This document shows positions 14,039-53,382 of a stretch of 64,000 nt of DNA, piece after piece. Where the stretch lies: the NCBI RefSeq assembly GCF_964204645.1, contig NC_134033.1:14138155-14202154 (forward strand). Reading direction: 5' to 3'. This DNA is from Tubulanus polymorphus (lineage: Eukaryota > Nemertea > Palaeonemertea > Tubulaniformes > Tubulanidae). Position 1 is the first letter of the stretch. Each line of letters starts with the position of its first letter. Position numbers and translations under genes: made by a program. Under the pieces are notes generated by a model. That model saw only the letters and a list, made by a program, of their open reading frames with translations, was not told the DNA's origin and ran no database searches.

Positions 14039-15363
14039 TGAGTACGTTATTTTATACGTAAATCGATAGGTGGAAGAGGGAATGGAGAATTCTCGACGAT
14101 GTTACTGGCAAGTTAGAATTCATAAATTTGAGGAAACTTGAGGAAATATTTCATATCGCATTTTTCGCTTTACATGTGACATTGTGAATTGTATATTTTT
14201 ATACTTAATCGTTGCTTGCAACCGTTTTTTTTTAGCTTTTTGTAATATTGTTTTACGTTTTTTCGTTTCTCATTTTTTTCCATCGACAATCGTGTTACCT
14301 GTTAATAAAAAGATGTTCGACTCGACACTTAGGCATCTCTCTAACGGTAAAAATAACCAGCTTTTGAGCAAGTGGGTTCTGTTCGGCAACCAATTTGAGT
14401 GAACTAAACGATAGTCCCGTTTTTTATGACGAAACGTCTTGTGTCATGACAGAATGATTACCTTATACAATAGACCTTCAAAACAAATTAACACTGTCAT
14501 GTGCGTTTTGAATTGCTAGTTCCTATGATGCAAGTCGAGGAGAAACAGGTTTTTAAGGCGTTGGCTAAAGTTTCATGCGGCGTTAGATTCAGTTTTCCGT
14601 CGTTCGGTATCCGGTTATACTTTCCTTGAATCATCGCGCAGTGGAACACTCCGCAAAGCGTTCGAATCTCGGATATCCCGGCTTCTCTGCTTCTCGAGTC
14701 CCAGACTCCTTATTATTTATTATTCTTTTTTTTAAATTTTTTTTTCCATTTTGAATTATAATAATCGTACAAAGTAATTTGTAATTTTTATTATTTTCTT
14801 GTCGACACTGCTTGCCATGGTAAAGATATCCTCTATGCGATGCAGTGACGTCGGGTCTATTAAGACTTTCGAAAATGTATTCAATTATTTCAGTTTTAGA
14901 AACAGCCAATCCCGTTTTAGAATACATTAAAATGCAGTGGATGCTCTCTGATTTTTTAAAGATTATATGGGGTAGGGCCCAAAACAACTCCCTTTGCAAG
15001 GGACTTTGTGCCTACGGCGCTCGCCATTGCGGAAACCCAACTTATGCCTTAACTTTTTCCTGATGTCGAACAATAGAAAAAATGAACGGTACGTGTCACT
15101 GTAAATCAAAAAGGAACCTTATCGGGTGGAGCGTTTACGCCCCATGCAGGGGTTTACGAGGAATACTTCCCACGAAAAGCGAATATACTTCATATCGTCG
15201 AATTCGACAGGAAATGAAATATGAGGTATCCATACTTCAAACGCGCTCAAGTCCTGTTAAAAAGCCTCCGTCGTTAATTTGTTTGTTTTACGAGGAAAAT
15301 GTCTCGATGCGGCCCTCCTGTAGCTGTCGGAAGAAGGTCGAGAGTATTCCGCGAAATATGCAC

Positions 15364-15720
15364 AGCTGTGGAACTGGGTCCAGAGCCAAATTAAAATAAC
15401 ACAGCAACTGTGGAACTGGGCCCGGAGCCAAATAAAACCCACACAGCTGTGGAACTGGGCCCGGAGCCAAATAAAACCCACACAGCTGTGGAACTGGGTC
15501 CAGAGCAAAATAAAAATAACGCAAATGTGCAACTGGGTCTAGAGTAAAATCTAAAAATACAACTGTGCAACTGGATCCAGAGTCAAATAGAAATAACACA
15601 AATGTGGAATTGTGAAAGTGGGTGGTTAAATTTAAACGATGAAAACTTTTTTTAGAGATCAAGCCCGGATTATATCTGCACAAATGTGAAACTGGGTTCA
15701 GAGTGAAATCTGGCCTGTGG
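15364..15720 (-). repeat. Tandem repeat of about 56 bp (minus orientation)
   Basis: At least five units share CTGTGGAACTGGGYCCRGAG followed by CAAAT(A/T)AAA and a short spacer. The central units at 15,408-15,520 are nearly identical, while the outer ones decay. It is the reverse complement of the repeat at 6,293-6,572. Confidence 0.75.
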
Positions 15721-20720: not shown

Positions 20721-23700
20721 CTACACATTTTGGGCCTGCGCTTTCGATTTTCTGGTCACCGGGCCCTATAAAAAAAGCGGAATAAATAAATACCTATACA
20801 CATATTTTGAAAAAATTAAATATTATTACTGAATTGAAATTCAGCCTCGTTTTCCTCCCTTCCACTTCTTTACCGCTTGGATCGTTTTTTCTTGTTTTCT
20901 ACCTTGTGGTCTCTTGTTGTTAGCGTTCTTGCGAATAAGTTGTGGCGAAATTGGCTGAAAATCTATGATGATATTCTTTTTTCCTTTCACTCTTGTGTTT
21001 TTCTTGTTATTTGCTAGAGGAGCGTTCTGAATTCAGGAAATAAACGAAATCAGACACACGATTATCTCTCCAAATCCCCTCCTATCCCTCTGAACCATAC
21101 CCTGGTATTCTGGTTCTTTCCTCGTTTGCTATTTTTGTTAGCATTCTTTATACATGTACATGGTAGTTTGTTCACGAATCTTGACAATATCAACTTCATT
21201 CTAATGATTTTCTTATTTTTACCCACGAAACCATCCGCGAGACAGTGATATCATGAATTTGGCACTTTGACAGTTAATTAAGCTTTTCCCCTTTTCTTTC
21301 CCTTCCCTCTCCCTCTCTCATTTTCTGTCTATATTCTCCTCTTACCTGGATCGTATTCTTTTGTTTCTTTCCTTGTTTCTTAATATTGTTAGCTTTATTG
21401 ATGGTTTGTTGCCGAATCTTCTCTCCACCATTTTTCTTATTATTTCCATTGCCAATAATTCCATTACCATATATCCACTTCACTCCACCGCCATTTTTCT
21501 TATTATTTCCATTGCCATATATCCACTTCACTCCACCAACATTTTGCTTATTATTTCCATTGCCATTATTTCCACCATATATCCACTTCACTCCACCAAC
21601 ATTCGTCTTATTTTTTCCATTGCCATTATTTCCATTACCATATATCCACTTCACTCCACCAACATTTTGCTTATTATTTCCATTGCCATTATTTCCATTG
21701 CCATATATCCACTTCACTCCACCGCCATTTTTCTTACTATTTGCATTGCCAATAATTCCATTACCATATATCCACTTCACTCCACCAACATTTGTCTTAT
21801 TTTTTCCATTGCCATTATTTCCATTACCATATATCCACTTCACTCCACCGCCATTTTGCTTATTATTTCCATTGCCATTATTTCCATTGCCATATATCCA
21901 CTTCACTCCACCGCCATTTTTCTTACTATTTGCATTGCCAATAATTCCATTACCATGTATCCACTTCACTCCACCAACATTTGTCTTATTTTTTCCATTG
22001 CCAATAATTCCATTACCATATATCCACTTCACTCCACCGCCATTTTTCTTATTATTTCCATTGCCATATATCCACTTCACTCCACCAACATTTTGCTTAT
22101 TATTTCCATTGCCATTATTTCCACCATATATCCACTTCACTCCACCAACATTCGTCTTATTTTTTCCATTGCCATTATTTCCATTACCATATATCCACTT
22201 CACTCCACCGCCATTTTTCTTACTATTTGCATTGCCAATAATTCCATTACCATATATCCACTTCACTCCACCAACATTTGTCTTATTTTTTCCATTGCCA
22301 TTATTTCCATTACCATATATCCACTTCACTCCACCGCCATTTTGCTTATTATTTCCATTGCCATTATTTCCATTGCCATATATCCACTTCACTCCACCGC
22401 CATTTTTCTTACTATTTGCATTGCCAATAATTCCATTACCATATATCCACTTCACTCCACCAACATTTGTCTTATTTTTTCCATTGCCATTATTTCCATT
22501 ACCATATATCCACTTCACTCCACCGCCATTTTGCTTATTATTTCCATTGCCATATATCCACTTCACTCCACCGCCATTTTTCTTACTATTTGCATTGCCA
22601 ATAATTCCATTACCATGTATCCACTTCACTCCACCAACATTTGTCTTATTTTTTCCATTGCCAATAATTCCATTGCCATATATCCACTTCACTCCACCAA
22701 CGTTTTTCTTACTATTTCCATTGACATTATTTCCATTGCCATATATCCACTTCACTCCACCGCCATTTTGCTTATTATTTCCATTGCCATTATTTCCATT
22801 GCCATATATCCACTTCACTCCACCAACATTTTTCTTATTATTTCCATTGCCATATATCCACTTCACTCCACCGCCATTTTGCTTATTATTTCCATTGCCA
22901 TTATTTCCATTGCCATATATCCACTTCACTCCACCAACATATGTCTTATTTTTTCCATTGCCATTATTTCCATTACCATATATCCACTTCACTCCACCAA
23001 CGTTTTTCTTACTATTTCCATTGCCATTATTTCCATTGCCATATATCCACTTCACTCCACCGCCATTTTTCTTATTATTTACATTGCCAATAATTCCATT
23101 GCCATATATCCACTTCACTCCACCAACATTTTTCTTACTATTTCCATTGACATTATTTCCATTGCCATATATCCACTTCACTCCACCAACATTTGTCTTA
23201 TTTTTTCCATTGCCATTATTTCCATTACCATATATCCACTTCACTCCACCAACGTTTTTCTTACTATTTCCATTGACATTATTTCCATTGCCATATATCC
23301 ACTTCACTCCACCAACATTTGTCTTATTTTTTCCATTGCCATTATTTCCATTACCATATATCCACTTCACTCCACCAACGTTTTTCTTACTATTTCCATT
23401 GACATTATTTCCATTGCCATATATCCACTTCACTCCACCAACGTTTTTCTTACTATTTCCATTGACATTATTTCCATTGCCATATATCCACTTCACTCCA
23501 CCGCCATTTTGCTTATTATTTCCATTGCCATTATTTCCATTGCCATATATCCACTTCACTCCACCAACATTTTTCTTATTATTTCCATTGCCATTATTTC
23601 CATTGCCATATATCCACTTCACTCCACCGCCATTTTGCGTATTATTTCCATTGCCATTATTTCCATTGCCATATATCCACTTCACTCCACCGCCATTTTT

Positions 23701-26700
23701 CTTACTATTTGCATTGCCAATAATTCCATTACCATATATCCACTTCACTCCACCAACATATGTCTTATTTTTTCCATTGCCATTATTTCCATTACCATAT
23801 ATCCACTTCACTCCACCGCCATTTTTCTTATTATTTACATTGCCAATAATTCCATTGCCATATACCCACTTCACTCCACCAACGTTTTTCTTACTATTTC
23901 CATTAACATTATTTCCATTGCCATATATCCACTTCACTCCACCAACATTTGTCTTATTTTTTCCATTGCCATTATTTCCATTACCATATATCCACTTCAC
24001 TCCACCAACATTTTTCTTATTTTTTCCATTGCTATTATTACTATTACCATATATCCACTTCACTCCACCGCCATTTTTCTTATTATTTCCATTGCCATTA
24101 TTTCCATTGCCATATATCCACTTCACTCCACCGCCATTTTTCTTATTATTTCCATTGCCATATATCCACTTCACTCCACCAACGTTTGTCTTATTTTTTC
24201 CATTGCCATTATTTCCATTACCATATATCCACTTCACTCCACCGACATTTTGCTTATTAATTACATTGCCATTATTTCCATTGCCATATATCCACTTCAC
24301 TCCACCGCCATTTTTCTTATTATTACCATTGCCATTATTTCCATTGACAGATATCCTCTTCACTCCACCTTTCTTCTTCGTATTCTTTCCATTGACATAT
24401 ATCCTCTTTACCCCACCTTTCTTCTTATTCGTTCCAGTGACATATATCCTCTTTACTCCACCCTTCTTCTTATTCTTTCCATTGACAGATATCCTCTTTA
24501 CTCCACCTTTCTTCTTCTTATTCTTTCCATTGACATATATCCTCTTTACTCCACCTTTCTTCTTATTCTTTCCATTGACATATATCCTCTTTACTCCACC
24601 TTTCTTCTTCTTATTCTTTCCATTGCCATTTATCCTCTTCACTCCACCCTTCTTCTTATTCTTTCCATTGACATATATCCTGTTCACTCCACCCTTCTTC
24701 TTATTCTTTCCATTGACATATATCCTCTTCACTCCACCTTTCTTCTTATTCTTTCCATCGACATATATCCTCTTCACTCCACCTTTCTTCTTCTTATTAT
24801 TTCCATTGACAGATATTCTCTTCACTCCACCTTTCTTCTTATTCTTTCCATTGACATATATCCTCTTTACTCCACCTTTCTTCTTCCTATTCTTTCCATT
24901 GACAGATATCCTCTTCACTCCACCTTTTTTCTTATTCTTTCCGTTGCCATTTATCCTCTTTACTCCACCTTTCTTCTTCTTATTCTTTCCATTGACATAT
25001 ATCCTCTTTACTCCACCCGTCTTCTTATTCTTTCCATTGACAGATATCCTCTTTACTCCACCTTTCTTCTTCTTATTCTTTCCATTGACATTTATCCTCT
25101 TTACTCCGCCTTTCTTCTTATTCTTTCCATTGACATATATCCTCTTTACTCCACCTTTCTTCTTCTTATTCTTTCCATTGCCATTTATCCTCTTCACTCC
25201 ACCTTTCTTCTTCTTATTCTTTCCATTGCCATTTATCCTCTTCACTCCACCCTTCTTCTTATTCTTTCCATTGACATATATCCTCTTTACTCCACCTTTC
25301 TTCTTATTCTTTCCATTGACATATATCCTCTTCACTCCACCTTTCTTCTTATTCTTTCCATTGACAGATATCCTCTTTACTCCACCTTTCTTCTTCTTAT
25401 TCTTTCCATTGCCATATATCCTCTTTACTCCGCCTTTCTTCTTATTCTTTCCATTGCCATATATCCTCTTCACTCCACCTTTCTTCTTATTCTTTCCATT
25501 GCCATATATCCTCTTTACTCCGCCTTTCTTCTTATTCTTTCCATTGCCATATATCCTCTTCACTCCACCCTTCTTCTTATTCTTTCCATTGACATCTATC
25601 CTCTTCACTCCACCCTTCTTCTTATTCTTTCCATTGACAGAGATCCTCTTCACTCCACCTTTCTTCTTCTTATTCTTTCCATTGACATATATCCTCTTCA
25701 CTCCACCTTTCTTCTTCTTATTCTTTCCATTGCCATTTATCCTCTTCACTCCACCTTTGTTCTTCTTATTCTTTCCGTTGACATATATCCTCTTTACTCC
25801 ACCTTTCTTCTTATTCTTTCCATTGACATATATCCTCTTTACTCCACCTTTCTTCTTATTCTTTCCATTGCCATATATCCTCTTCACTCCACCTTTCTTC
25901 TTCTTATTCTTTCCATTGCCATTTATCCTCATTACTCCACCTTTCTTCTTCTTATTCTTTCCATTGACAGATATCCTCTTTACTCCACCTTTCTTCGTCT
26001 TATTCTTTCCATTGACAGATATCCTGTTTACTCCACCTTTCTTCTTATTCTTTCCATTGCCATATATCCTCTTCACTCCACCTTTCTTCTTCTTATTCTT
26101 TCCATTGCCATTTATCCTCTTCACTCCACCTTTCTTCTTATTCTTTCCATTGACATATATCCTCTTTACTCCGACTTTCTTCTTATTCTTTCCATTGCCA
26201 TATATCCTCTTCACTCCACCTTTCTTCTTATTCTTTCCATTGACATATATCCTCTTTACTCCACCTTTCTTCTTATTCTTTCCATAGCCATTTATCCTCT
26301 TCACTCCACCTTTCTTCTTATTCTTTCCATTGACATATATCCTCTTTACTCCACCTTTCTTCTTATTCTTTCCATTGCCATATATCCTCTTCACTCCACC
26401 TTTCTTCTTCTTATTCTTTCCATTGCCATTTATCCTCATTACTCCACCTTTCTTCTTCTTATTCTTTCCATTGACAGATATCCTCTTTACTCCACCTTTC
26501 TTCGTCTTATTCTTTCCATTGACAGATATCCTCTTTACTCCACCTTTCTTCTTATTCTTTCCATTGCCATATATCCTCTTCACTCCACCTTTCTTCTTCT
26601 TATTCTTTCCATTGCCATATATCCTCTTCACTCCACCTTTCTTCTTCTTATTCTTTCCATTGACATATATCCTCTTTACTCCACCTTTCTTCTTATTATT

Positions 26701-29700
26701 TCCATTGACAGATATCCTCTTTACTCCACCCGTCTTCTTATTCTTTCCGTTGCCATTTATCCTCTTCACTCCACCTTTCTTCTTCTTATTCTTTCCATTG
26801 CCATTTATCCTCTTCACTCCACCTTTCTTCTTCTTATTCTTTCCATTGCCATTTATCCTCTTCACTCCACCTTTCTTCTTCTTATTCTTTCCATTGCCAT
26901 TTATCCTCTTCACTCCACCTTTCTTCTTCTTATTCTTTCCATTGCCATTTATCCTCTTCACTCCACCTTTCTTCTTCTTATTCTTTCCATTGCCATTTAT
27001 CCTCTTCACTCCACCTTTCTTCTTCTTATTCTTTCCATTGCCATTTATCCTCTTCACTCCACCTTTCTTCTTCTTATTCTTTCCATTGCCATTTATCCTC
27101 TTCACTCCACCTTTCTTCTTCTTATTCTTTCCATTGCCATTTATCCTCTTCACTCCACCTTTCTTCTTCTTATTCTTTCCATTGCCATTTATCCTCTTTA
27201 CTCCACCTTTCTTCTTATTCTTTCCATTGCCATATATCCTCTTCACTCCACCTTTCTTCTTCTTATTCTTTCCATTGCCATTTATCCTCTTCACTCCACC
27301 TTTCTTCTTATTCTTTCCATTGCCATTTATCCTCTTTACTCCACCTTTCTTCTTCTTATTCTTTCCATTGCCATTTATCCTCTTTACTCCACCTTTCTTC
27401 TTCTTATTCTTTCCATTGACATATATCCTCTTCACTCCACCTTTCTTCTTATTCTTTCCATTGACAGAGATCCTCTTCACTCCACCTTTCTTCTTCTTAT
27501 TCTTTCCATTGCCATTTATCCTCTTCACTCCACCTTTCTTCTTCTTATTCTTTCCATTGCCATTTATCCTCTTCACTCCACCTTTCTTCTTCTTGTTCTT
27601 TCCATTGCCATATATCCTCTTTACTCCACCTTTCTTCTTATTCTTTCCATTGACATATATCCTTTTTACTCCACCTTTCTTCTTATTCTTTCCATTGCCA
27701 TTTATTCTCTTCACTCCACCTTTCTTCTTCTTATTCTTTCCATTGACAGATATCCTCTTTACTCCACCTTTCTTCTTATTATTCTTTCCATTGACAGATA
27801 TCCTCTTTACTCCACCTTTCTTCTTATTATTCTTTCCATTGACAGATATCCTCTTCACTCCACCTTTCTTCTTCTTATTCTTTCCGTTGCCATTTATCCT
27901 CATTACTCCACCTTTCTTCTTCTTATTCTTTCCATTGACAGATATCCTCTTTACTCCACCTTTCTTCTTATTATTTCCATTGACAGATATCCTCTTAACT
28001 CCACCCTTCTTCTTCTTATTCTTTCCATTGATATATATCCTCTTTACTCCACCTTTCTTCTTATTCTTTCCATTGACATATATCCTCTTCACTCCACCCT
28101 TCTTCTTATTCTTTCCATTGCCATATATCCTCTTTACTCCACCTTTCGTCTTATTATTTCCATTGCCATATATCCACTTCACTCCACCCTTCTTATTATT
28201 TCCATTGCCATATATCGACTTCACTCCTCCGCCATTTTTCTTATTCTTTCCATTGCCATATATCGACTTCACTCCTCCGCCATTTTTCTTGTTATTTCCA
28301 TTGCCATATATCCACTTTATCCCGCCCTTCTTATCATTTCCTTTGCCATATATCGACTTCACTCCACCATTCTTATTCTTTCCATTGCCATATATCGACT
28401 TCACTCCACCCTTCTTATTATTTCCATTGCCATATATCCACTTCACTCCACCCTTCTTATTCTTTCCATTGCCATATATCCACTTCACTCTACCCTTCTT
28501 ATTATTTCCATTGCCATATATCCACTTCACTCCTCCGCCATTTTTCTTATTCTTTCCATTGCCATATATCCACTTCACTCCACCCTTCTTATTCTTTCCA
28601 TTGCCATATATCCACTTTACTCCGCCCTTCTTATTATTTCCATTGCCATATATCCACTTCACTCCACCCTTCTTATTCTTTCCATTGCCATATATCCACT
28701 TCACTCTACCCTTCTTATTATTTCCATTGCCATATATCCACTTCACTCCTCCGCCATTTTTCTTATTCTTTCCATTGCCATATATCCACTTCACTCCACC
28801 CTTCTTATTCTTTCCATTGCCATATATCCACTTTACTCCGCCCTTCTTATTATTTCCATTGCCATATATCCACTTCACTCCTCCGCCATTTTTCTTATCA
28901 TTTCCTTTGCCATATATCCACTTCACTCCACCCTTCTTATTATTTCCATTGCCATATATCCACTTCACTCCACCCTTCTTATTATTTCCATTGCCATATA
29001 TCCACTTCACTCCACCCTTCTTATTCTTTCCATTGCCATATATCCACTTCACTTCACCCTTCCTATTCTTTCCATTGCCATATATCCACTTCACTCCACC
29101 ACCGTTTTTCTTGTTGTTTCCCACAAGAACATGCTGGAGACAGAGAAATAACAATTTCAGAACTTCATCAATAATGTCGGCTTTCCCCATGTTCCTCCTC
29201 TTCCTTCTCCCTGCCCTTCTCACTACATTCCTTAACCTCTATTTTTTTTCTTCTTACCGTCTTGTACGTATTCTTATTGATTGTTTGTCGCTGAATCTTC
29301 ACATTCTTCCCCTTCGCGCTACAATTTTTCGTTATCTTCCCTACAGCAACTTCCTGGAGAAACAATGATTCAATTACTTGAAAATAATAGTAACTATTCT
29401 TATCGTAACATTATCATCACTCATTGCTTTATACTCATTTATTCCTCAACTTTCATTTGAAATTGTGCGGAAATTTTTGAAACATTGTATTTTGTGCATT
29501 AAGATTATTTTTATATCATATAGATTGATTAAACTGTCGCATCATTTTATTAAGTAAAAACGACCCGAAACGTTAGAGCTATATGTACCAGCTTCAGACG
29601 AACGAACCCACCGGGCGATCTAAATTGAGACAAGGATTTCCGTTCCACATTTAGGGCGCGATTTTTCTTATCAATTTCACCTGCAAAATGAAGGAGATCA

Positions 29701-31321
29701 TCTCATCTTGGTAAGAGGCAAATCTTTCCATTCCCACCCCCGCTGCACTGGACTCGAAACTGTAAAGGCGGGAACATAGATTAGAGGCATGAGTTTAATC
29801 ATGATGCATTGTTTGAAATAAATAAAGTCGCAACAAGAAAGCAAGTTTCCTAAAAGGTAGAATAGCTATACTCTGACGTGAAGAACAGATGATGATTTCA
29901 AAACTTACCGCATACAGAAATTAATAGATTAAAAACGAATTCTATCATTCAAGAATTAAATTCAAAAGACACGACGTTTCATACTCTCACTAGAGATCAA
30001 CGTCATCTGAAAATAATAATTATAGAATTCGTTTTAAATCTTTTGAGTTCTGTATATAGTGGGTTTTAAACTTATTAAGTTGTATAAACAAGAATACTAA
30101 CTTGCAAGTTTATTGACACATTGAAAAACAACACACATGTATTTATATTGTCGACAATGAATATGTTATTATGAATGATATACACATGTGGTATATGTCA
30201 AGGATCAACGGAATTCTTTGTGAATTTGCATATATCGACGATTGAATTGAACTGACTGGGACCAGTCTAGCGCCAGTAATGAACGAACGAACGAACGAAC
30301 GAACGAACGAACGAACGAACGAACGAACGAACGAACGAACGAACGAACGAACGAACGAACGAACGAACGAACGAACGAACGAACGAACGAAGAAATGTAA
30401 TAAAAAAAACACGCTCACAGTCAACCCTCAACACAAAGAATGGGGACATAATAAACTATGATAACTGTTTGATTAAGAGCTACCTATGTAATCATCTAAT
30501 AAGCCAGTTGTTTTCTCTGTAATTCTTCAATCATCAAGTGCATACTTTTAATGTAACTATAATTTCAGTTTGAATTAGAGGATACCTGTATAATGTAATC
30601 ATTCAGTAAGCATAAGTTGTTTACTGTTATTCCTCAGAAACAGTTTTGAATTTTCCAGATTTATCAGATTGTCACTGATGTTATGCCAAAGTAAAGGGCC
30701 GGATATTTTCACTGAAAATTTTCTTTTTAGGCTATTGTCAGAAACTGTGTGTAAATCTTGACGTCGCCGAGTATCGTGACTGTGTGGATTTGAAAATTTT
30801 GGCTTCAATGATTTTCGAATGATTCCGCTAATTCAGAGTTGACGAATTTGTAAATAAAAGTACCTCGTTAAACTAAAACTCCATGCCAGAAAATGCTTTA
30901 CCCATTTCTTCGGGGGGTTATTTGAAGTGAATATCAGTGGAATATATTCAACGCGATCTTTGTGACTGTCAAAATGTATCAAAATGACGACGTAAGCGAA
31001 TCAACACGCATTAATTACAGAAATCGGCACCGCACGTGTTTTTATTATCACCAATTGAAAATAACGACATTGTGAAAAATGACTCTATTCAAATAATTGA
31101 GCGTGGGAGGAATATCAGTTGTTGATGGTCAATATTGTGGGTTTTCAATACGTTCAAAGCGCGCTGATAGTATTGAGATCTGGTCGGATATAGCTCGGAA
31201 AGGGTTAACGTATCTTACCTAGAGCGCGTTTATCTCGATCTTTCTCGTGTTCATCCCTTGAGTTGACAACGGCTGCCAACAACAACACAGTCGCCGCGCC
31301 AATGAAAACTAAACTCCGCAT
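20721..31321 (-). CDS. Gene A: giant secreted basic repeat protein, about 2,746 residues, six coding exons
   Basis: Exons on the minus strand: 31,321-31,219 (signal peptide, MRSLVFIGAATVLLLAAVVN), 29,680-29,612, 29,340-29,258, 29,133-21,346, 21,026-20,874 and 20,765-20,721 (TAG). Each has AG/GT borders, and the lengths (103, 69, 83, 7,788, 153, 45) sum to 8,241 nt, an exact codon multiple. The giant exon follows a pyrimidine-rich acceptor (CTGTCTCCAG) and ends at CAG/GTAAGA. It encodes about 160 copies of a 14-22-residue unit (GGVKRIYVNGKNKKK and GGVKWIYGNGNN types), cysteine-free and strongly cationic. The exon 2 donor is the weakest call. An alternative exon 5 donor (CAAG/GTAGAA) would read into a CVAANCL ending like gene B. 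The protein is presumably extracellular and structural (matrix, mucus, cement or shell); that is inference. Paralogue: gene B. Confidence 0.7.
21083..21200 (-). pseudogene. Decayed duplicate of a gene A exon tail
   Basis: On the minus strand AAGATTCGTGAACAAACTAC ... GGAAAGAACCAGAATACCAG parallels the tail of the giant exon (KIRQQTINKANN...KQKNTIQ, 21,420-21,346) but contains in-frame stops and has lost the GT donor. It sits in the intron between the giant exon and exon 5. Confidence 0.5.
21346..29133 (-). repeat. 7.8-kb coding minisatellite (giant exon of gene A)
   Basis: Tandem units fall into three blocks, in protein order. 29,133 to about 28,150 has 42-bp units (KKGGVKWIYGNGNN). About 28,150-24,345 has 45-48-bp units (GGVKRIYVNGKNKKK or GGVKRINGNGKNKKKK). 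About 24,345-21,410 has 63-bp units (NGGGVKWIYGNGNNGNGNNKK). The coding strand is purine-rich throughout and no unit breaks the reading frame. Units at about 26,750-27,190 are almost identical 48-mers, indicating recent local expansion. Exact copy number in an assembly may be unreliable. Confidence 0.9.
30281..30390. repeat. (GAAC)n microsatellite, about 27 units
   Basis: An uninterrupted GAAC tetranucleotide run, interpreted as the 3' tail of the adjacent LINE fragment. Confidence 0.95.
30281..30870 (-). mobile_element. LINE 3' fragment ending in a (TTCG)n tail
   Basis: Minus-strand translation of 30,808-30,599 includes HSHDTRRRQDLHT and GPLLWHNISDNL, the pattern seen at the C-terminus of CR1/jockey-type LINE reverse-transcriptase proteins (a YNTR-like motif, then GPxLWN.LP). 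A stop and about 190 bp of 3'UTR follow, and then a perfect (TTCG)n run at 30,390-30,281, a microsatellite tail typical of such LINEs. The upstream part is frameshifted. It lies inside intron 1 of gene A. Confidence 0.6.
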
Positions 31322-33149
31322 CGCACTGGAAATATGTATGGCATCTTTGATTAACTAACGTGACGGCTTTTCAAATGCAAAGCCGAATCAGAAGAAACCT
31401 TTAGATGGAAAGGTGATAAGTTTTTCGTCAAATGTGTATTGAATACTACGAAAAAAATGAGAGCAAGCTTTTCGTGCATAAAATACCTTTTCGTCTGGTT
31501 ATGAATGAATTTCCGTTTCAGCAGTTATAGATCGTTCTCGAACAAAGCGGGCAGAACGTACCGTCACACAACGCGACGCAAGAGAAGATTGAACAGAACT
31601 GCACCGGGGCACTGGTGTTTAGGTCCCGAAATCGATGTTGAAGGACCTCTCTGTCTTCCGATAATGTAATGTTACCAATTGACTGCACTTAAGAATTCGT
31701 AACTTTTCTCGAATAAGGATCGGAACTATAGAATTCACATCGTACTTATTAACAGCTGTTCAACTCATAATGTGATGAAAGAAGATATCGAAAGTACATC
31801 TAACATTGCGTCTTGTGACTAAATGATAATCTGATCGAGACGTCAAGTTGGACTGCGAAATAGAGTTGACATCATCTTTCTCGGAGTCCTCTATTCCACT
31901 CGTTTGGAGCACCTAGAAATCCAACTAATTTCATCAAAGTTAAGTCGGATCGAAATGCCGACTGAGTTTCGCTTCATTCACGCCAGTTGATGGGGAATCC
32001 TGGCTCTGTAATGGCCAAATATTTATCGTGGGACCAAAAGGATTTTTTCACACGCCGGCGCAACCAGCGTGCCGTTGAAATCCGATCAATACATCGGCCG
32101 TTTTCGAGAATTATTGATATAATAGTTAAGTGTCTTACAGTCATTGTATGAATTTTCATTGTAATAACAGCTGCCAATTAGGTCTCGTCTCTCAATAGTC
32201 TTTATATCTTATTCTTGTTTAATTGATTCGATTTTATCTTGTTAAGTAATGTTATACATCGCTGGTTTACTAGCTACTGCGGCAATTGAAGATCCAATAG
32301 ATCAATGGAATTGAAACAAGCTATACACAAATTACAAAGATCGAAAATGAATATTTATTATTCAGGAATATAACACTGATTAGGACACAACGTTTGGGAC
32401 TGGGTATAGTTCTAAGCCCGGCTTGGCATGGAATATTTCTTGTTTTTATTTTGTCTTCACAATTCCGATCTTGTTATTTCGATGTGTTGATTTATTGGCT
32501 TGTTAATATAATTCTCAAATATGAATTCGCGAGATATGCTGATCAAATTGGCGAGCGTATCGATATCCTATCATCCTTGAATGAAAATGATTTTATGAAC
32601 AGGTTGGACCGCCAAGCTTGGAAGTTTGTAATAAATATTTGTAGTGATAATTCCAATATTATTGATTCCGCATCCATTTTATATGAATAGGATTTGAATC
32701 GGTGTCTCAAACCTGCGACACAATTTGTAAACAAGTAAAAAGAGATGCACCAGGGCCCAATTTCACGAAGGGGAATTAAGAATTTTCTTTCAGTTTTTTC
32801 TTATTGATATTTTTTCGGCCTTTTACGTTGATATCGCACCAGTTATGATATATTTGATAAATGCCCGTGTTTAAAGCCTGACAGGCAACAACATTTCCCA
32901 TGCGTACAGAAATATTGAACACACAGTTTTTATCAATGAACTTTTCGTATGTGCATCTAGGCGTGTATCTGTAATAGGTCGCAAGTTTCAACCATTTCCT
33001 TCTGTATAGCGCCTTATTATGGGGTTTCTTAATACATGCGATGGGATATAGCGATTTATAATTTGCAAAAAGGTAATTATATTTTTCTATCCGAATTCAA
33101 GCATCCAGATGCACATAAGAGAATTGATTAGTATTGGAATTTCTTTTTC
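31322..33149. other. 5' flank of gene A and intergenic space to receptor L
   Basis: About 31,540-31,690 is closely similar to 49,490-49,660 upstream of gene B (shared GAACAAAGCGGGCAGAACGT and ACGCGACGCAAGAGAAGATT). It probably holds the shared promoter and 5'UTR exon, since an acceptor-like TTTCCAG lies a few bases before each ATG. Homology to the gene B side continues weakly to about 32,180. A lone MITE-like end is at 32,754. No other gene seen. Confidence 0.5.
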
Positions 33150-36100
33150 TTATTTCTTGCCTTTGTTTCGTGCTCTGACTGATTTCATATCAATAGTTAG
33201 AATGGTGTAAAGCAATGGGTTCAGAGTTGAGTTTATGGGTAAGAAAAGAACGGACAGCCAAGCAGCGACCTGGTTCGGTATCTCGACCGAAAAAACCACA
33301 CAGAATTGAACGATTATTAACGGTAGCCAACAAAACAAATTACACAGATTAATGACTAAACTGCGTCGAGCTAGAACGAGTTCCGTAGGATCAGCTCTAC
33401 CCGAACCGGACCTGCTTCCAGATACAAGCCTGTACATCTGCGCATACGTCACCATTATCAGAATGAGGATGATCGCGTTTAATACAGCAAATATAGCGAA
33501 CGAATATTGCCAACCTTTGACATTGATAGAGATTAAGTTCATAGGTAGACACACACCTGTGGTACCATAAAATCTGTCTCCGAAATAAGACAATTCTGAA
33601 AGCGGTAGTAAAGCAGATATTCCTAGCGTCATCCAGCATAGACAGCACATTCCACATATAGATTTCGGGGATAAAAGTGGGTTACCAGAAAATGGATCAA
33701 CGATGTTTGAATATCTGAAACGCGTTAGGAGAAACAGAAATGTCAATGAGCCTTCGCACGATAACATTACCACAACTCCGGCAACCTTGCATAATGAACT
33801 ACGAGTCCAGGTTTCAGAATGGAGAAAATAAACACCTTTATAAACGAAATCAGCGCCAGCGATCAGAAGCAAATAAATTGCCATCAGAAAATCACATACC
33901 GCAATATTAATGATGAATACATCTGAAGTTTTGGTTTTCGTTTTTGATGAAATCATGATTGATTTTGAACGAAGTAAAATGACTATACCGTTTGCCAAAA
34001 AACTGAAAAATGCAATTACCCAGATTACAGCTCTGAGGACGGTGTTGTCCATGAGATCTGAACACGATGAAAATTGATCAGGATCCGGGAGACACCGGTC
34101 AATGTTAGGTACCATACAGCAGAATTTGTACGCGTCTGAAGCGAGAAAGAATAATGACGTCAGATTATCGAAGATATTGCTTTCTACGGAAATTATTTGA
34201 AAGTTGTTGGAAAAATCCAGAACTCCTAAAGATCTGAGCCCGGAAAAAGCGTACGAGGATATTGCATTGATTGCATTATTGCTCACGTTCAAAGATTTCA
34301 GCGCAGGTAAACCTCGAAATATATACGGACCAAGAACAGATATAGAGAGACCGTGAAGATCGAGAACCGGAAGTGAGATCAAACCATTGAAACTACCTTC
34401 ATTCAAATATCTTAGTGGATTTCCAGTGAGGACAAGTTCCTTTAAACTCTTTAAACCAAGGAATGTATTTGCAGGTATTGATACTAGACGGTTATGAGAA
34501 AGATCTAAAGAATTTAGATTGTGTAGTTTAGAAAACGCATTGGACACGATGTCTGATAGATTATTATATGAAATATCGAGTACACGAAGATATACAAAAA
34601 GGAAAAATGTCGTTACGTTAAGTAAAATGCTGTTGTTTGTGAGAATTAAAACTCGAGTCGCAGCCGGAAAAATTCCAGATATATCTGACAAACTTGCATT
34701 TTCGCAATTGATGAAATGACCTTGGCATTTACAACCTTTAGGACACGTTTCGTCACAGTAGGCTTCGTCATCCGAGTTATGAATACAATTAACGACACCA
34801 TCACAAACTTCCAACTGCGGAATACATCGATTTTCATCTCCGCATTTAAACATTCCTGGACATGAAAATGTTTTACAACTTAATTCATCTTCTGAATTAG
34901 GACAATCAGTTTGTCCATCACACACCTGTCTGATTGGTATACAGTAAGATGATGGACATTTCACTGTACCAGCTGGACATTCAAATTCACTGCAATCCAG
35001 TAAATGTTCGAGCCTTCTACATGTAGGAAAACCCGTGGCCTTTCTTTCGAAAATACATCTGTCTCGTCTCGAATAACAATGCGGAGATTCGAACGAACAT
35101 CTTTGTTCATCGGTTTCATTACAAAGATTTGTAAATTCAGTCGTACAATATTCTTCACGGTTGCAGTGGATCGTTGGGTTAACAGTTATATTAGTAACTA
35201 TCTCATCTTCTTCCAGTTCACCACCGCAATCAACAATACCATCCCGATACAATAGAGAACTGATACATTCACCATTTACACACAAAAACCCGTTACATTT
35301 GTCCGGAGTGCAGCCGATCTCGTCGGATTTATCTTCACAATGAACCAGTCCATCGCATCTTTTATATGTACCCACGCATTTTCCATTGTTACACCTAAAC
35401 TGTTCTGAGGAACATAAAGTACGATAGCACGAGTTCTCATCTGATCCGTCAACGCAATCTCGTACGAAATCACAAACATTACTGACTGATATAACCTGTC
35501 CATCGTAGCACTGGAATTGGCTCAATGAATTAGAACTTTGACAATTAAGTTCATCTTCTCCGTGTTGACAGTCCTTTCTGGAATCACAAACACGATGTTT
35601 GCTGATACATCTGGCATCGTTACATTCAAACTGCCAGGATTTGCACCCGCTTACAGATGATGATTCATCACTAGTTCTGTTATAGGAACATAACACAGAA
35701 TGCGCTTTATCTGTGATATTATTGAAAGCTGCTAATGACCATTTCGCGATAGTGATATATGTGACGGCATCTCTAGTTACAACTGGTTTTATTGCCAGAA
35801 ATCCACCTCCGTTGCTATCCTTGGTTAGTATATTACCATAATGGTGCTGATAGTGGAACAATTTTATCAAATACGGAATTTCAATGTTAGATGATATCAT
35901 ACCTATGTTTCCGCCGATTGTAAGACACATTCTCCTGGCAGTCTGAACTGCCAATGATTCAGTGTTGAGTGATTCCCAGGCTGTAAGTATCTGATAGCAA
36001 CGTCTTTTAATCCTAATCCAACCTCTTAAACACGTTGAGTCAACTACATCTAACCAATTCCTCATTTTACTAATAGTATCGTTTTGTGAATGTTCCATCG

Positions 36101-39100
36101 TCGTATTTAATTCACGTGAGTATGCAGTTGAGTTGTCCATGCGTTCGGTTTCACAAATGAAAGTCGTATGCATTTGGATGATTTGACACGGAAAACGAAC
36201 CCAGTTGGCGGAACCACGTGGGTTGTTCAGTATCATCGCCGTACACGGTACATTGACGTCATTTGTCGGTTGTTTTCTAAGTGGAGATATCAATCCTTGA
36301 ATAAGTTCTGGTATTGTTTCATTTAAAAAAGCAGGTTTATACCACTCTGTGTAGCTCAATGGTTTCCCATCAGTCCATACGTAGTAACTACCATTTACCT
36401 TGAAATATGATTAATGAGTAGATTATGATATCTTAGGTAGAATAATCAATGATTCTATATCTTAGATTACATATCACTTTATCAACACGAGATCCTTAAT
36501 AAATTGCAGAGCCGTAAATTCGTTTATGAAAAAGGTTTATCGATCTTTCATCACATTAAGACACAACTTATAACTTTAATCAATTTTTTAATCACATATT
36601 TTCACGTGTTTCATATTTTCTAAATTACTGTTGTACCTGCCATTTTAATCCAATCATCACAACAAGCGCCGCTTGTGAATATGCCTGATGAAGCAGTCTC
36701 GTAGCGAACAACTTTTTCACAGCCATCATTTCATGTTGTGAGTTGATACTAAGAAGATGTCCTCCATATTTCTGTCGACAGTACAATTCAGCGTCCTCCC
36801 AATTCAGACGTTCATGTTTGATGTATCTGATACACGAAACTCCAGAATCTAGAAAATCTGATCCGCAGACATTGATTCGATCAATCGGTAAAGGCGATTT
36901 CTCTAAAGTGTATTGAATTTGAAATGTGGGGTAATACGACTTCGTCGCAAGATACAAATCGTACCCGAGAAGACTGTACCAAACATGTCCAGGTACAGCA
37001 TTGTTTTCACATATTTGAGTTTTGAAAATCGTTTCAGCAACAATCTTTCCTCCTCGGTATTGGGGATAGTACACATAAGTTCTTACGTATTGTGTAAACG
37101 ATAAGAAATCTCGTTTAGTAAAAGTTTTCGACTCCGTACAAGACGTTTGTCCGATGAAACGAATCAAGAATCTGAGATAATAGTTTATTTTTCTGTTACG
37201 AGGATGGAAAAACGCAAAGTAATTTGGCTTGCAGCCATGAGTAGGAGGTGTACCTGGATAGTCAGGGGATTGTATCATTCCGCATTTATATCTCTGGCCG
37301 TAATCAAAATCTCTAAAACCATGTGATTTTTTCAATCTCTGACAATTACGCTTAAGTATTACTAATAGACCGCTATTCCCGTACATTGTGAATGCATATC
37401 TATTCAATATCGTTATTCGGCTTAACACTAATCCGTTCAATGACTGACTACTATACCTTAGATATCTATCACACAAACCAAAGACTCTGGTCCAACATCC
37501 GCCCAGCTCATATTTGTATTTTGATAATACATATATGTTTTCTAATGGAAGGCGTCGGTTTTCAGGTGTAATAATTATACAATGTGACGTCATATTTATC
37601 TGACGTTCTCCTTTTCGTAGAACATACCCGTCGCAGTCAGTTGGTCGAAATTGAAGCTTACCACCTCCTAACCGACCATTCCAACTGTAGGCAACTACTG
37701 TAACCGATCCTCCTGATGAAATCAGGCCGACCACTGATCGACCATAGTTCGTCTTATCGCCAGGAGGACAATACGGACCATGGCGTCTATCTGTGAAATT
37801 ACCGCCGTCGTATATGTAGAATCCAGCTCGCTCGCAGTTCTCTGATGTCACGTCGATATGCAAGTCATCTTCATAGATGTCGACTTTCCAGTGAAAGTTA
37901 AATCTACTGATACGATATGTAAACACCTTTGGTATGTGAGGAAGCACATCCGCTTTCAACGTGTAGATTAAGCCTGTCGAACCCATAATATAAATCTGAA
38001 ATAGATTCACATTATCGTTATATCAACGTTATGTTTTTACTCAAAAGTAGATCTGAAATTTTGAAACCACCCTGTCGCGGCAAGCTGCCCGAGCGGAGGA
38101 TGTTTCCAAGTGTCCAAAGTTACGCACACTGTTCAACTAAATTGAATACAATACTTACATCCCTATTTTCCACCTTGACGTCCGATATTCTTAATGATTC
38201 TATTGTGTAGTCAATTGTTGAATTCTGAATCGAAATCACGAAATAATTCTCCGATATCAGTAAACATAACGTCACGAGAAATCCTTCAGATTTTACACTC
38301 GAAGATTCCAGGTAGTTGAAGCCATTTAAAATATCAGTTCCGACAATCGATTGACCCTCGAGTTTGTATACACCGACGACACCTGATTCATTGAGATCGC
38401 GTGTCCAGTTGAAGACGACGTACTGCAGTATTTCAGCTCTGATAGACCAGCAGTACAAGTGTTTAGACTGAGTTATTACGTACGGCCTATCACTAGGAAC
38501 GAGCACTCCGGATTTGTTATAAAAGATCGGAATCGATGGATTAGAAATGTTCCAATCTGATATTTGATATTTTTCAACCACAACCATAGATGTCACCCTG
38601 AACCTTGCACCTTGCCTCGAGAGAGTGATCAGAGCTTTGTTATTTTTAGTGTAAACCGTCTGAGGTGGATAACCGATTTGTTCTCGTAAAATCAATATGG
38701 GATCACTACTTGAGTTCCATCCGTCATAAACTCTAACGTCCTGCTCTGAACCTGCCAATATATAGTAATCAAACTTCTCAAAAGTCAATTTCATCCCGAT
38801 ACCGTCTGGTATCCCGGGCCATTCCAATTTCAGATGACAAGGTTTGTTGATTGAAATGTGAAATTGGTCGTTTCCAGTTTTGTATGATCGAAAACGTGTT
38901 ACACCATTAGAATAATAACTACAATTGTCATCGCTTCTCAGCCCGGTGCCGCTTGGCATATGATAAACTACCAACAGGCGACCGGGTTCTTCTCCAACAT
39001 CACTATTATACACCAAAGAAAACTCATTTGTACGTTGAATATCTGATTTGCGATCTTTACCACATAATTTTTTATTCATTTCGCTTATCCTGAGGAAGCT

Positions 39101-39448
39101 TTTGCGACACCACAATTGTAAATCGTAGTATATTCGAATTCGAAACAGGCCCGGTAAAGAGCTGTTTACTGTCCAACGACATTTAACATCGCGTACTAAC
39201 GACGGATAGTTCGGTGAAAAGATGATACCAGACGTAGAATTGACCGAGTACCAAGTGTTGTTACACGATGAAGTGACAGTTATTGTCGGTTTCTCGGTGG
39301 AGCTCCGATCAGCGGTAGTGCTCTGAGTTGTGGTAGAGCTTTGAGGCGTGGTAGGGCTGCTCCGAGTCGTTGTAGCGCTCTGAGTCGCAGTTTGTGAAAT
39401 AATCAGTAGAATCAGTAGAATCAGCAATAACTCCGTGAAACGTGTCAT
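33150..39448 (-). CDS. Receptor L: CUB-like/C-type lectin/LDLa/LRR seven-transmembrane receptor (GRL101-like)
   Basis: Coding exons are 39,448-38,159, 37,995-36,637 and 36,398-33,150, all phase 0, giving 1,965 residues. Order: signal peptide (MTRFTELLLILLILLIISQ), Ser/Thr-rich linker of about 35 residues, CUB-like region (SGIIFSPNYPS; CGMIQSPDYPG), a C-type lectin-like domain split by intron 2 (NWEDAELYC ... FICETER, about 815-970), a second lectin-like stretch (about 1,005-1,125), five or six LDLa modules from about 1,136 (CDSRKDCQHGEDE, CVDGSDENSC), LRRs (about 1,440-1,650) and a 7TM domain from about 1,672. Landmarks: CDFLM in TM2, FRY where LGR proteins have DRF/DRY in TM3, and NSTLNPLLYT in TM7. 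The LDLa/LRR/7TM order matches Lymnaea GRL101 and relaxin-type receptors; the CUB and lectin parts are extra. It acts at the plasma membrane; the ligand is unknown. Inverted twin of receptor R. Confidence 0.88.
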
Positions 39449-39565
39449 GATGTTGTCGACGGAATGAATTGTGAATTCTCTACACCCAACTCGATTCGCG
39501 AATCCATATTTTTTTCTATTTTATTTTCACATTCAAATTTTCTCTGGACCAATCATCTACATGCA
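33150..39565 (-). repeat. Left arm of a large inverted duplication
   Basis: The whole receptor L gene plus about 115 bp of promoter is repeated in opposite orientation at about 53,270-60,217, separated by some 14 kb. The 3' flanks diverge immediately after the stop codons; the 5' flanks are similar for about 115 bp, then patchily out to 40,520 and 50,470. Confidence 0.9.
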
Positions 39566-41850
39566 GGTTAGTTTGAATTACGTATCATTTTTAAATAACG
39601 GTTTCGTGAACTTATTTTTTTACCGGAAAAAAAAATAACCAAAGGTCGTTTTTCGGACAGTTTAATTTGAATTTAACAATATCTATTTTATCATGTAGTT
39701 TTCTTTCTTTTTTCTGTTCCGAAACCATTCCGATCTAAATTCAATTAAAAACGAAGTTTTTGTCATAATTTCATATTGTTGTACCTACACTCTCGCAACT
39801 TAGGAAAAGCTGACAATTTCGAACTGATGCTACTGCACTGAGAACATGAAAAAATAATGTTCAACAATTATCATTCAAACAAATGAGAAAACATTCAAAA
39901 AGGATTATCATCAGACTGATTCAGATTCTTGCTTCTAATGCGTATGCACTTAGAATAGAAACGTATTTCTTGCTTGCTGATTAGAAATTTGTTAGTTCAT
40001 TGAGGAGATCATCGGTTCTTAGTTGTTTATGGTACGAATACGGATATTTTTGACACTCCAACCATTTCCATGGTATATGGAGGAAAAATAGTATTTACAA
40101 TAATTACATAAAAGGTAATAAAATCTTTTAAAACTTCATAAACTGGATTCACACTTGAATACATGATATACTATTTACATATATACTATCGGAGGGATTT
40201 GTATACATCTAGACCTATTTTGATAAATTTAGCCAAATTTAAAGTTGGATTTTTTAATACATTTAAGTTCAGAAAATTATGGCCACTGCTGCTACTGCTG
40301 CTGCAGCGATGACGTGTCATCCAATTAGCGTTAGACGTGTCCCGGGTGAATATGAGACGGTGTTGACAATTTTCGGACAAAGACCAACTTCGTTAAACGT
40401 TCGTTAAACGAGGATTTCAAATATAGAGTTACTTCCAATTACAGACTACGTGGCGCCTGTAAAAATGAAAGTCTATCTGTTCGCAGTGAGAATAGATACC
40501 ACGTATCACGTTCAGTATTCAAACACCAACAAGTTCATCTAAGGTGTGAAATGCGAAGAATTAGCCAACTGACCAGATTCTATTAGTCCATTTATTTCAG
40601 AGAAAAAGGCAATTGTTTCCGTGTCCTCGATATTTTTGTAAATCCTCAGAAAATTGGAAGTCGCCTTTAGAACGTTTGAAACAATGATAAAAAAACCAAC
40701 CACAACAACAACAGTGGTTACTAGTTTATACGCGATGTAAACAAAAATTAGAAACCGGTTTTTTTTTTGCTCGAAGACAAAGCAAAAAAAGCATAGGCAG
40801 TGACTGATTCTTTAAAATGTACTGTAGATCATAAAAATAGCATTAACGCCGTAAAAAACGAGTATGGACTCGCGACATTAAAACACAACCTTGTTGATTC
40901 TTAGTAGGACCTTCTTAATAGTCTTAATCGGACCGTAAAGCATTGATTTTTAATCGATTTTAAATTGTATCGCAGGATATCCAAAAAGTCTTCATGTGCT
41001 CGATCTCAAGTCAACTTGAAATAGACATTAGCGTCACAACATACGGTGCATATACTGATTGTTTCTACAAATGAAGTTGATTAACCGTTGTATCGGCACC
41101 AGCCATCGATGGAGAAATAGGTTCGTATATAGAAATAGGTTCGTATATTTGTATAGTTATTCGGAATTTATTGAGGATCGTTAGCTCGGGTTTTCTTCAG
41201 AAGTTGGGTCTCAACCTATTGTGAAAAAGGGCCACGCGTGAATAAAACAATGGAGGGCGGGAAGCGTCAGTGCCGATCCTTTTGATCAAAACAGCGCGCA
41301 ATGTACTGTTCTCATTTAAGAAGCTGGAGGCTTTTTTTAAACGTTCGCCTTTTTGAAGCAAATGTTTTTACCAAGCGAATCATTGAAAAATAACATGATT
41401 TGGAAAAATTCGTGCGGACCTCAAACGAGTAGTTTTTCTATAGAAAAGAAAATATATCATATCTAGCAGAATCTAGCTTATTCGGGAACGTTTTTAAATG
41501 ACAATTCAGAAACGAGTCTTTATGGTTTCTACTCGGTAAACATGATGATAAAAATTACTTTATCTTTGCTTTGATTGAGAACACGATTGAAAGAAAAAAC
41601 AAAAGTATGCAATTCTAAGTATGATATCGCACGTATAATCTAGATTTTTAAACTCAAGTCATTATAAGTCCGTGGTATGATGTTCATGTTGCAATCCAAG
41701 GGTGTTGCAAGAGGGTACGATTATTGTGGATTATACCTTGGAGTAATCATTGTCAAAAGATTACTCCAAGATACGTACCCTGAAGCTATCGACCCGATCA
41801 GGCGGTCGCCTAAGACCATCTTCTTTTAAAACATCAAATTCATTCTTTTT
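39449..41850. other. Left inverted-arm flank and intergenic spacer
   Basis: 39,449 to about 39,565 is the receptor L promoter, mirrored at about 53,270-53,382. 40,065-40,260 matches the reverse complement of 50,680-50,470, and 40,270-40,520 matches the reverse complement of 51,225-51,000, but the two blocks are in swapped order relative to the right arm. A small hairpin (CTTGGAGTAATC/GATTACTCCAAG) lies at about 41,739-41,770. The first exon of the galactosyltransferase should lie here but was not identified. Confidence 0.5.
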
Positions 41851-41852
41851 AG

Positions 41853-42888
41853 ATATAAATGGATTGTTTTAGCAATACTTGCTCTGTTTTTACTGCACAT
41901 GCGAGGAGTAGTAAAAATCACGATTGGCGCACCCAGAACGATACGACCGCCATCTCCGTTTATTGGTAATCTACGAGATATTGAATTCGTCAACAACAAT
42001 GCCGCCATATGCCGAGGAAACCCTAAAACTATCGTAGTCATTATATCACGCGTGATGAGCTACGACAAACGTCAGGCAATTCGTGCAACATGGGCCAAAT
42101 CGAATAGCGATGTTCGGTATGTTTTTTTGATCGGACTGCTAGCTACGGAGGACCATCTCTGGGAGCGGTTTCTGCCCGTAGAAATGGCCACGTACGGCGA
42201 TATTATACAGATTAATATGAAAGACGTGTATTACACACTGACGATAAAAACGGGCGCCATGGTTAAATGGGTTTACGAGTATTGCCGACATGCGAAATAC
42301 GTCATCAAAATCGACGATGACATGTATTTGGACGCCGAACAGTTTACGTATGCGTTAGATGCGCGCGCAGATCAGAACGCGTATTTTGTGTGTACGGTCT
42401 TAGTTCGGCCCTTCGTAATTCGAGATCCAAGAAGTAAATTCTATATCAGCCGGGAGACGTGGCCGTTACCTACTTTCTCAAATCATTGTCTCGGTTCCGG
42501 GTATGGTTTCACGGCGAATGCAATTCCCGATATTTGGAGAGCGGCTCTAAAAACTGAACTGATACAATTCGAAGATGTCTGGTTGACGGGCTTAGTAGCC
42601 AGGAAAGTGCAAGATCTTAAACTCGTTAACGATAAACGCGTGCATTTTTTGCCTTTATTAAAAAACTGGTGCGAAATGAAGCATTGCATCACGATGCACG
42701 GACTTAGTCCAGAAAATCTGTTAGATATATGGCGAGACAAGTTGGCCGGTAAAACCTGCCCTCCACCGACCAAAAGTCTACAAAGAAAATGTACAATACC
42801 TGATAATAATCTAATAGTTATGATTGTATTTTTGATCTGTTTCAACTTTATTTCGTGCTCTGATCGATTTCATTTAATATCTGGTTAG
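41853..42888 (+). CDS. Beta-1,3-galactosyltransferase-like (GT31) gene, 5' exon not found
   Basis: The exon follows the acceptor CTTTTTAG at 41,845-41,852. Its first residues form a signal-anchor (YKWIVLAILALFLLH), so the start Met is probably in an upstream exon; an internal Met at 41,899 would lose the anchor. GT31 landmarks in order: RQAIRATWA, YVFLIG, YGDIIQ, YTLTIKT, the metal-binding DxD region IKIDDDMYLD, GSGYGFTAN and FEDVWLTGL. The predicted role is a Golgi type II enzyme adding beta-1,3-linked hexose to glycans; the exact donor and acceptor cannot be read. The last about 15 codons (FNFISCSDRFHLISG) come from sequence antisense to the receptor 3' end, so the stop codon is borrowed from a receptor relic. 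Confidence 0.8.
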
Positions 42889-43934: not shown

Positions 43935-44059
43935 AAAATGAAATGCAATATCTGATTCGTTGTATTTCGTATTGCATTTGAGAATTTCATCGTATTCTAA
44001 TTAGTCTAAGCTAGATTTGCGAAGTCAAACTAAACGATGCCATCAGGTTCGAATCCCAG
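43935..44059 (+). repeat. 125-bp dispersed direct repeat, copy 1
   Basis: This begins AAAATGAAATGCAATATCTG and ends in the B-box-like CATCAGGTTCGAATCCCAG. It is about 97% identical by eye to 45,519-45,642. The SINE-like tail suggests a composite or truncated SINE. Confidence 0.8.
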
Positions 44060-53269: not shown

Positions 53270-53382
53270 AACCTGCGTGTAGATGATTGGTTGGGTGAAA
53301 ATATTATGAAAATAGATAAGGAAAATAATCCGCGAATCGAGTTGGGTGAAAAGAACTCAGAATTTATTCCGTCGACAACATC

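Follow-up and report, generated by a model that had tools for sequence, protein, structure and literature searches.

A 7.8-kb repeat exon in a duplicated D-assembly gene of the nemertean Tubulanus polymorphus: a candidate giant secreted polycation

Introduction

A stretch of 64,000 nucleotides from the palaeonemertean Tubulanus polymorphus (assembly GCF_964204645.1, contig NC_134033.1, positions 14,138,155 to 14,202,154; hereafter the window, in whose own numbering all positions are given) carries on its minus strand a gene, here called the repeat gene, with one exon of 7.8 kb that holds a long Gly/Lys/Asn-rich repeat array. Judging from its sequence, we lean towards reading it as a coding gene whose secreted, polycationic product would belong to mucus, a glue or the material of a tube, derived from a duplicated D-assembly gene, i.e. 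a gene of the VWD-C8-TIL type. An initial annotation had already proposed that the array is translated, as one exon of a secreted cationic protein of giant size. This proposal now draws its support mainly from a paralogue in the same window, which had been missed at that stage; the open frame does not serve as evidence for it, and the selection test inside the array is null once variants are de-duplicated.

A D-assembly paralogue and common descent

The paralogue, found by genome search and by comparison of the window with itself, occupies 49,128-45,165 on the minus strand, its start 18 kb from the repeat gene (Table 1). Its domain matches make it a clear D-assembly gene, closest to IgGFc-binding protein (FCGBP), VWF and mucin-2 (MUC2). 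The best match of its 480-residue predicted protein in the PDB is FCGBP (8rde, E-value 1.8e-131), and VWF and MUC2 are matched as well. In Pfam, VWD (4.2e-24) and C8 (2.8e-8) are both above cut-off, while TIL falls just under the 24.5-bit cut-off in the joined protein (4.1e-5, 24.1 bits) and passes it in a single reading frame (25.7 bits). Near the 3′ end of this gene, a segment of 125 bp is found twice (43,935-44,059 and 45,519-45,642, 97% identity), perhaps a fragment of a mobile element.

The repeat gene and the paralogue align by blastn in seven colinear blocks, from the 5′ flank to the 3′ untranslated region (3′UTR). Upstream, 31,853-31,441 corresponds to 49,828-49,414 (75%) and 32,091-31,855 to 50,177-49,944 (71%). 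Exon 1 and a portion of intron 1 form a block with 95% identity (31,181-31,352 against 48,988-49,154), with 2 of 102 nt differing between the first exons themselves. Exon 2 follows at 74% in its block (61 of 87 nt identical), then the 3′ end of exon 4 with its donor (21,411-21,338 against 48,043-47,967, 74%, E-value 2e-7), a 33-nt block from the TIL exon tail (85%) and, last, the 3′UTR (75%). A block at 95% beside flanks near 75% points to gene conversion as the likely cause.

The last coding exon, exon 6, falls into two parts. Its first part (20,767-20,746) corresponds to the opening bases of paralogue exon 4, which is short and basic (47,890-47,869; score 29, given as such, with no shuffle control), and its second part (20,737-20,705) to the tail of the TIL exon, together with the donor that follows it there (45,697-45,665; score 41, against a maximum of 28 in 300 shuffles). 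By this alignment, exon 6 fuses the beginning of paralogue exon 4 with the TIL exon tail, from which we take the VWD-C8-TIL assembly to have been deleted from the repeat gene. No VWD domain is found there by Pfam, with the array frame and two joined segments from the ends of the gene scanned separately, and the paralogue exons that would match are missing at the fusion. Because of the seven colinear blocks and of this fused exon, the repeat gene can be said, at the level of sequence, to share descent with a VWD-C8-TIL gene. Since D-assemblies are widespread, the D-assembly gene would be the older of the two states.

The gene model and the repeat array

The model of the repeat gene has six exons on the minus strand, between 31,321 and 20,721, with GT-AG at all five introns, matching phases and joins in frame; the array exon had been claimed to be phase-compatible with a signal-peptide exon at 31,321-31,219 and with basic exons downstream, and the model bears this out. 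The signal peptide was assigned by eye. The furin-type RDKR, at residue 29, is the sole match to R-x-(K/R)-R in the whole protein. The predicted product has 2,758 residues, rather than the approximately 2,746 first estimated, and a single Cys, located in exon 3, so that the repeat itself is free of Cys, as had been stated. From residue 22 on, its isoelectric point would be 11.25, its net charge about +754 and its mass 293 kDa. Intron 1 also contains a perfect GAAC microsatellite of 27.8 copies (30,281-30,391).

Exon 4 (29,133-21,346) runs for 7,788 nt without a stop, and its splice sites are intact, with the acceptor TTTCTCTGTCTCCAG and the donor GTAAGAGG directly after CAG; the annotation of the array as exactly 2,596 stop-free codons, bounded by an acceptor and a CAG/GTAAGA donor, is thus confirmed. 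The phase is 0 on either side, and skipping of the exon would preserve the frame. We count 151 units of 14-21 residues, fewer than the 160 or so announced: 150 are complete (16 of 42 nt, 39 of 45, 53 of 48, two of 60 and 40 of 63) and the last one runs into the exon tail. Tandem Repeats Finder gives a period of 48, changing to 63/126/189 toward lower coordinates. Three blocks succeed one another, with consensus GGVKWIYGNGxNKK, then GGVKRI(Y/N/S)(G/V)NGKNKKK(K), then a longer form, GGVKWIYGNGNNGNGNNKxN. As only 87 of the 150 complete units are distinct, the array looks young and homogenised.

The composition of the array is extreme: 25.3% Gly, 25.0% Lys, 20.3% Asn, 4.1% Tyr and 2.5% Trp, no Pro, little Ser or Thr, and 735 Lys and Arg residues against six Asp and Glu. 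Asn-Gly pairs number 256, against a mean of 132.7 in 200 composition shuffles, and 99 of them have Lys next; the array contains about 650 lysines.

Growth of the array appears to have occurred inside one copied Lys-rich exon. We compared six sequences in all 15 pairs, with 100 shuffles each: exons 3 and 5, the start and the end of exon 4, the probable relic that lies in intron 5, and exon 3 of the paralogue. Local scores exceeded every shuffle in eight pairs (score, then shuffle maximum): exon 4 end with paralogue exon 3 (53, 30), exon 4 start with exon 4 end (49, 21; both ends of the same array), exon 4 end with exon 3 (39, 27) and with the relic (39, 27), exon 4 start with the relic (35, 26), exon 5 with paralogue exon 3 (33, 26), and exon 4 start with exon 5 (27, 22) and with exon 3 (23, 20). 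The seven other pairs did not rise above their shuffles: exon 5 with exon 4 end (34, 34), with the relic (26, 36) and with exon 3 (16, 24); paralogue exon 3 with the relic (25, 27), with exon 3 (23, 26) and with exon 4 start (18, 22); and exon 3 with the relic (18, 29).

Does the array code for a protein?

Openness of the frame alone is no proof of coding, because another frame of the array and other minisatellites of the window are open as well, and we rejected it as such. On the opposite strand, the array can be read in one frame without meeting a stop, and in another with just one. Of the two other minisatellites tested in the window with a period that is a multiple of three, that at 15,361-15,609 is open in one frame and that at 62,839-63,750 in two. 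Several points weigh against the coding reading, beginning with the variation between units. A first test compared units within each length class and tallied the different single-base variants (classes of fewer than five units, four units in total, were omitted) and, with variants common by descent to several classes counted repeatedly, gave a weak signal: of 84 variants, 26 were synonymous, 58 non-synonymous and none a stop, against 18.4, 61.3 and 4.3 expected (synonymous excess, P 0.034; absence of stops, P 0.012), spread 17/27/40 over codon positions 1/2/3 (P 0.009). When the 30-nt core was taken from each of the 150 units and no variant was counted twice, there remained 8 synonymous, 26 non-synonymous and no stop, against 7.3, 25.1 and 1.6 (P 0.45), with codon positions at 11/11/12: the variants look neutral, and there is no firm sign of purifying selection inside the array. 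Exon 2, compared with that of the paralogue, is near-neutral too (non-synonymous divergence, dN, 0.37; synonymous divergence, dS, 0.43; dN/dS about 0.85, a short and noisy estimate over 29 codons). AlphaFold2 models of array segments are of low confidence (mean predicted local distance difference test score 41.8 for segment A2, 57.2 for A1), and suggest, at a very low level of confidence, many short strands. Finally, the TIL tail in exon 6 appears to be read out of its own frame and to stop at once, which would also suit a decaying duplicate.

That the repeat gene is indeed a dying duplicate, whose domains were deleted and whose array expanded unconstrained, no protein being made or needed, is the alternative that we take most seriously, while holding it unlikely. 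It would account for the null test in the array, for the loss of the entire D-assembly, for the near-neutral exon 2 and for the probable relic exon in intron 5. It has to face the fact that GT-AG is kept at all five introns, along with 2,758 stop-free codons, despite a divergence of 25-29% from the paralogue (in the 5′ flank, exon 2 and the 3′UTR); that the frame entering from exon 3 exits the array in the conserved frame of the Lys-rich tail; and that this tail, against paralogue exon 3, yields a dN/dS of about 0.28 (dN 0.26, dS 0.92, again short and noisy, over 22 codons).

It is more doubtful still that the array is an intronic minisatellite, with exon 3 (or exon 2) spliced to exon 5 and an open frame that would be the mere by-product of a stop-free unit of 3n nucleotides. 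The second open frame of the array, the open minisatellites just mentioned and the phase 0 on both sides, which lets skipping keep the frame, all agree with this view. Against it, the last stretch of the array is homologous to paralogue exon 3, shares its frame and is followed by a homologous donor, and this places the array within an exon, unless that exon itself died. As for a coding gene whose product would bind nucleic acids or microbes (defence, DNA trapping) instead of building a material, the apparent signal peptide, the furin-type site and the extreme positive charge fit it, yet the giant size, the 256 Asn-Gly pairs and the 25% Gly resemble matrix or glue proteins more and the descent is from a mucus-type gene, so that we find it very improbable.

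A scenario for the repeat gene

The reading that we favour, a coding gene for a secreted structural polycation, would unfold as follows. A secreted VWD-C8-TIL gene of mucus type would have been duplicated. In one copy, a deletion would have brought the first bases of the short basic exon up against the TIL exon tail, with loss of the folded assembly and, before or after this event, the unit of the Lys-rich exon would have been amplified in frame into the 7.8-kb exon. The product would be a polycation of about 290 kDa carrying a signal peptide, with some 750 net positive charges, almost no acidic residue and no Cys in its repeats. Its role would then most probably be structural: if the gene is transcribed and the protein secreted, a multivalent cationic chain would bridge polyanions such as acidic mucins and sulfated glycans, and so form a gel, a glue or a lining that holds together, and the Lys and Tyr residues that it bears might be used for covalent curing.

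A further idea, to which we give very little credence, is that of a self-curing, one-component material, where Asn-Gly and Lys would form isopeptide cross-links after secretion, without an enzyme, while deamidation would slowly add negative charges. Asn-Gly is especially prone to succinimide formation, and succinimides can react with Lys to give an isopeptide bond. The idea comes from the 256 Asn-Gly pairs of the array, taken together with work, cited in PMC8497302, that reportedly found Asn and Asp able to form cross-links by way of a succinimide.

Features and surroundings

The coordinates of the two genes are collected in Table 1.

Table 1. Features of the repeat gene and of its paralogue (window positions)
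Feature	Position	Strand	Content
5′ flank in common with paralogue	32,091-31,441	minus	about 650 bp; blastn
Exon 1	31,321-31,219	minus	apparent signal peptide (by eye), acidic stretch, furin-type RDKR; phase 1
Exon 2	29,680-29,589	minus	GT-AG, in frame; homologous to paralogue exon 2
Exon 3	29,353-29,258	minus	Lys-rich; resembles 3′ end of exon 4
Exon 4	29,133-21,346	minus	151-unit Gly/Lys/Asn repeat array, 7,788 nt = 2,596 codons; Lys-rich tail at end
Relic of Lys-rich exon, in intron 5	21,223-21,100	minus	probable; without acceptor AG at the position equivalent to that of exon 4
Exon 5	21,026-20,874	minus	Lys-rich
Exon 6	20,765-20,721	minus	last coding exon, TAG at 20,723-20,721; apparent fusion of two paralogue exon parts
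3′UTR/terminal region	20,665-20,430	minus	with AATAAA; 75% identity to paralogue 45,385-45,165
Paralogue gene	49,128-45,165	minus	same signal peptide, exon 2, Lys-rich exon, short basic exon, then VWD, C8, TIL
Paralogue exons 1-7	49,128-49,026; 48,809-48,679; 48,070-47,975; 47,888-47,846; 47,748-47,489; 47,076-46,899; 46,709-46,568	minus	joined
Paralogue C8/TIL exons	within 46,360-45,665, then 3′ end	minus	joins by eye

The paralogue sits between the members of an inverted pair of large genes, at 33,144-39,600 (minus strand) and 53,240-60,223 (plus strand), with 85-92% DNA identity, which we take to be GRL101-like. The minus-strand copy has Pfam matches to LDL-receptor A, LRR, rhodopsin-type seven-transmembrane and CUB domains, with a C-type lectin just under the cut-off. 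At 41,830-42,888, on the plus strand, there is an apparently intronless frame resembling a beta-1,3-galactosyltransferase (Pfam Galactosyl_T, 1.8e-41). The minisatellite at 62,839-63,750 is made of 21-nt units (periods 21/42/63/84), and its two open frames are on the minus strand; it comprises a 383-residue stop-to-stop frame rich in Arg and Val, with no Pfam match. Rfam, at gathering thresholds, yielded no match over 284 kb, made up of the window plus 22 of the 24 stretches that flank it.

At the scale of the genome, 12 of 20 contigs examined are large (32.1-11.5 Mb), and CCCTAA telomere repeats are present in the first 1,500 bases of two of these, C9, which is the contig of the window, and C10. 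Contigs C14 and C20 open with 1,500 bases whose GC content, 0.29 and 0.22, is the lowest of 19 readable starts (one more was mostly or wholly N); these two small contigs may be something other than nuclear DNA of the host. COX1 was searched for and gave no hit.

Comparison with known families and systems

The initial annotation knew of no described family with this repeat. This holds for the repeat, for which neither Pfam nor the PDB gave a significant match. The gene, by contrast, does have described kin: it appears as a duplicate, in derived form, of a VWD-C8-TIL gene that is itself related to mucins and IgGFc-binding protein. Pfam returned no family, either for the whole array frame or for 2,044 codons of the array, and the best E-values in the PDB were 0.55 (the same 2,044 codons) and 0.2 (a profile of four segments). 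A match of exons 2-4 to bacterial Secretin (E-value 0.0099) is below cut-off and was taken as chance. Word searches of open-access texts did not find the repeat described. In a set of 5.8 billion proteins, with matches limited to 0.55-1.75 times the query length, neither residues 1-400 of the array nor alignment A2 found a homologue (about 8,000 best candidates scored each); this set apparently lacks animal proteins, because the paralogue, with its clear animal relatives, found no match there either (3,497 candidates), and the result is uninformative on novelty. Close relatives of the repeat protein may well exist. Within the genome (267.8 Mb, 77 contigs), a 186-residue query of exons 1-3 and the array start gave at least 38 matches, all in the window, and tblastn found no further gene copy in 240 kb around it (140 kb below, 100 kb above).

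Among known systems, the D-assemblies of IgGFc-binding protein, mucins and VWF (PDB 8rde, 7pmv, 7a5o) have their counterpart in the paralogue, and this assembly is missing from the repeat gene, which keeps in common with the paralogue the signal peptide, exon 2, the end of the Lys-rich exon and the 3′ end. The presence nearby of a sister copy that retains its domains would make the birth of a structural protein readable at base level, through exon duplication, a domain-deleting fusion, repeat growth and probable gene conversion of the signal exon. The repeat itself suggests a polycationic material chemistry, with bridging of polyanions and perhaps Asn-Gly/Lys cross-linking.

Adhesive proteins offer two points of comparison, each taken from the parts of the publication used here. 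In the Cuvierian organ of sea cucumbers, the COOLPs are tandem-repeat adhesive proteins devoid of domains and predicted to be rich in beta structure (PMC12472103). Compared by description, the tubule adhesive is acidic, and no D-assembly relative is mentioned in those parts (PMC12472103).

The best parallel, by analogy, is PRIT-Dg, from the glue of the tomato frog, a protein of about 3,250 residues from an FCGBP-like lineage in which VWD supradomains were lost and tandem repeats gained in parallel (PMC11237159). The repeat gene resembles the frog PRIT proteins in its FCGBP-like ancestry, in the loss of the VWD supradomain (VWD-C8-TIL) and gain of tandem repeats, and in being rich in Gly and Lys, low in Cys, endowed with a signal peptide and of some 3,000 residues, as these features are given in the same parts of that paper (PMC11237159). 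There, PRITs are described as keeping IgGFc-binding domains, which the repeat gene does not have by Pfam (array frame and two joined end segments). Their repeats, as described and unaligned, are of 18 residues, with Pro-Gly motifs and predicted O-glycan sites; those of the repeat gene lack Pro, are poor in Ser and Thr and carry a far stronger positive charge. If expressed, the repeat gene would be an apparently independent case of the route reported for frog glue, where duplication of a mucus-type D-assembly gene is followed by loss of the folded domains in the copy, which comes to code for a giant repeat protein, here in the form of an extreme polycation.

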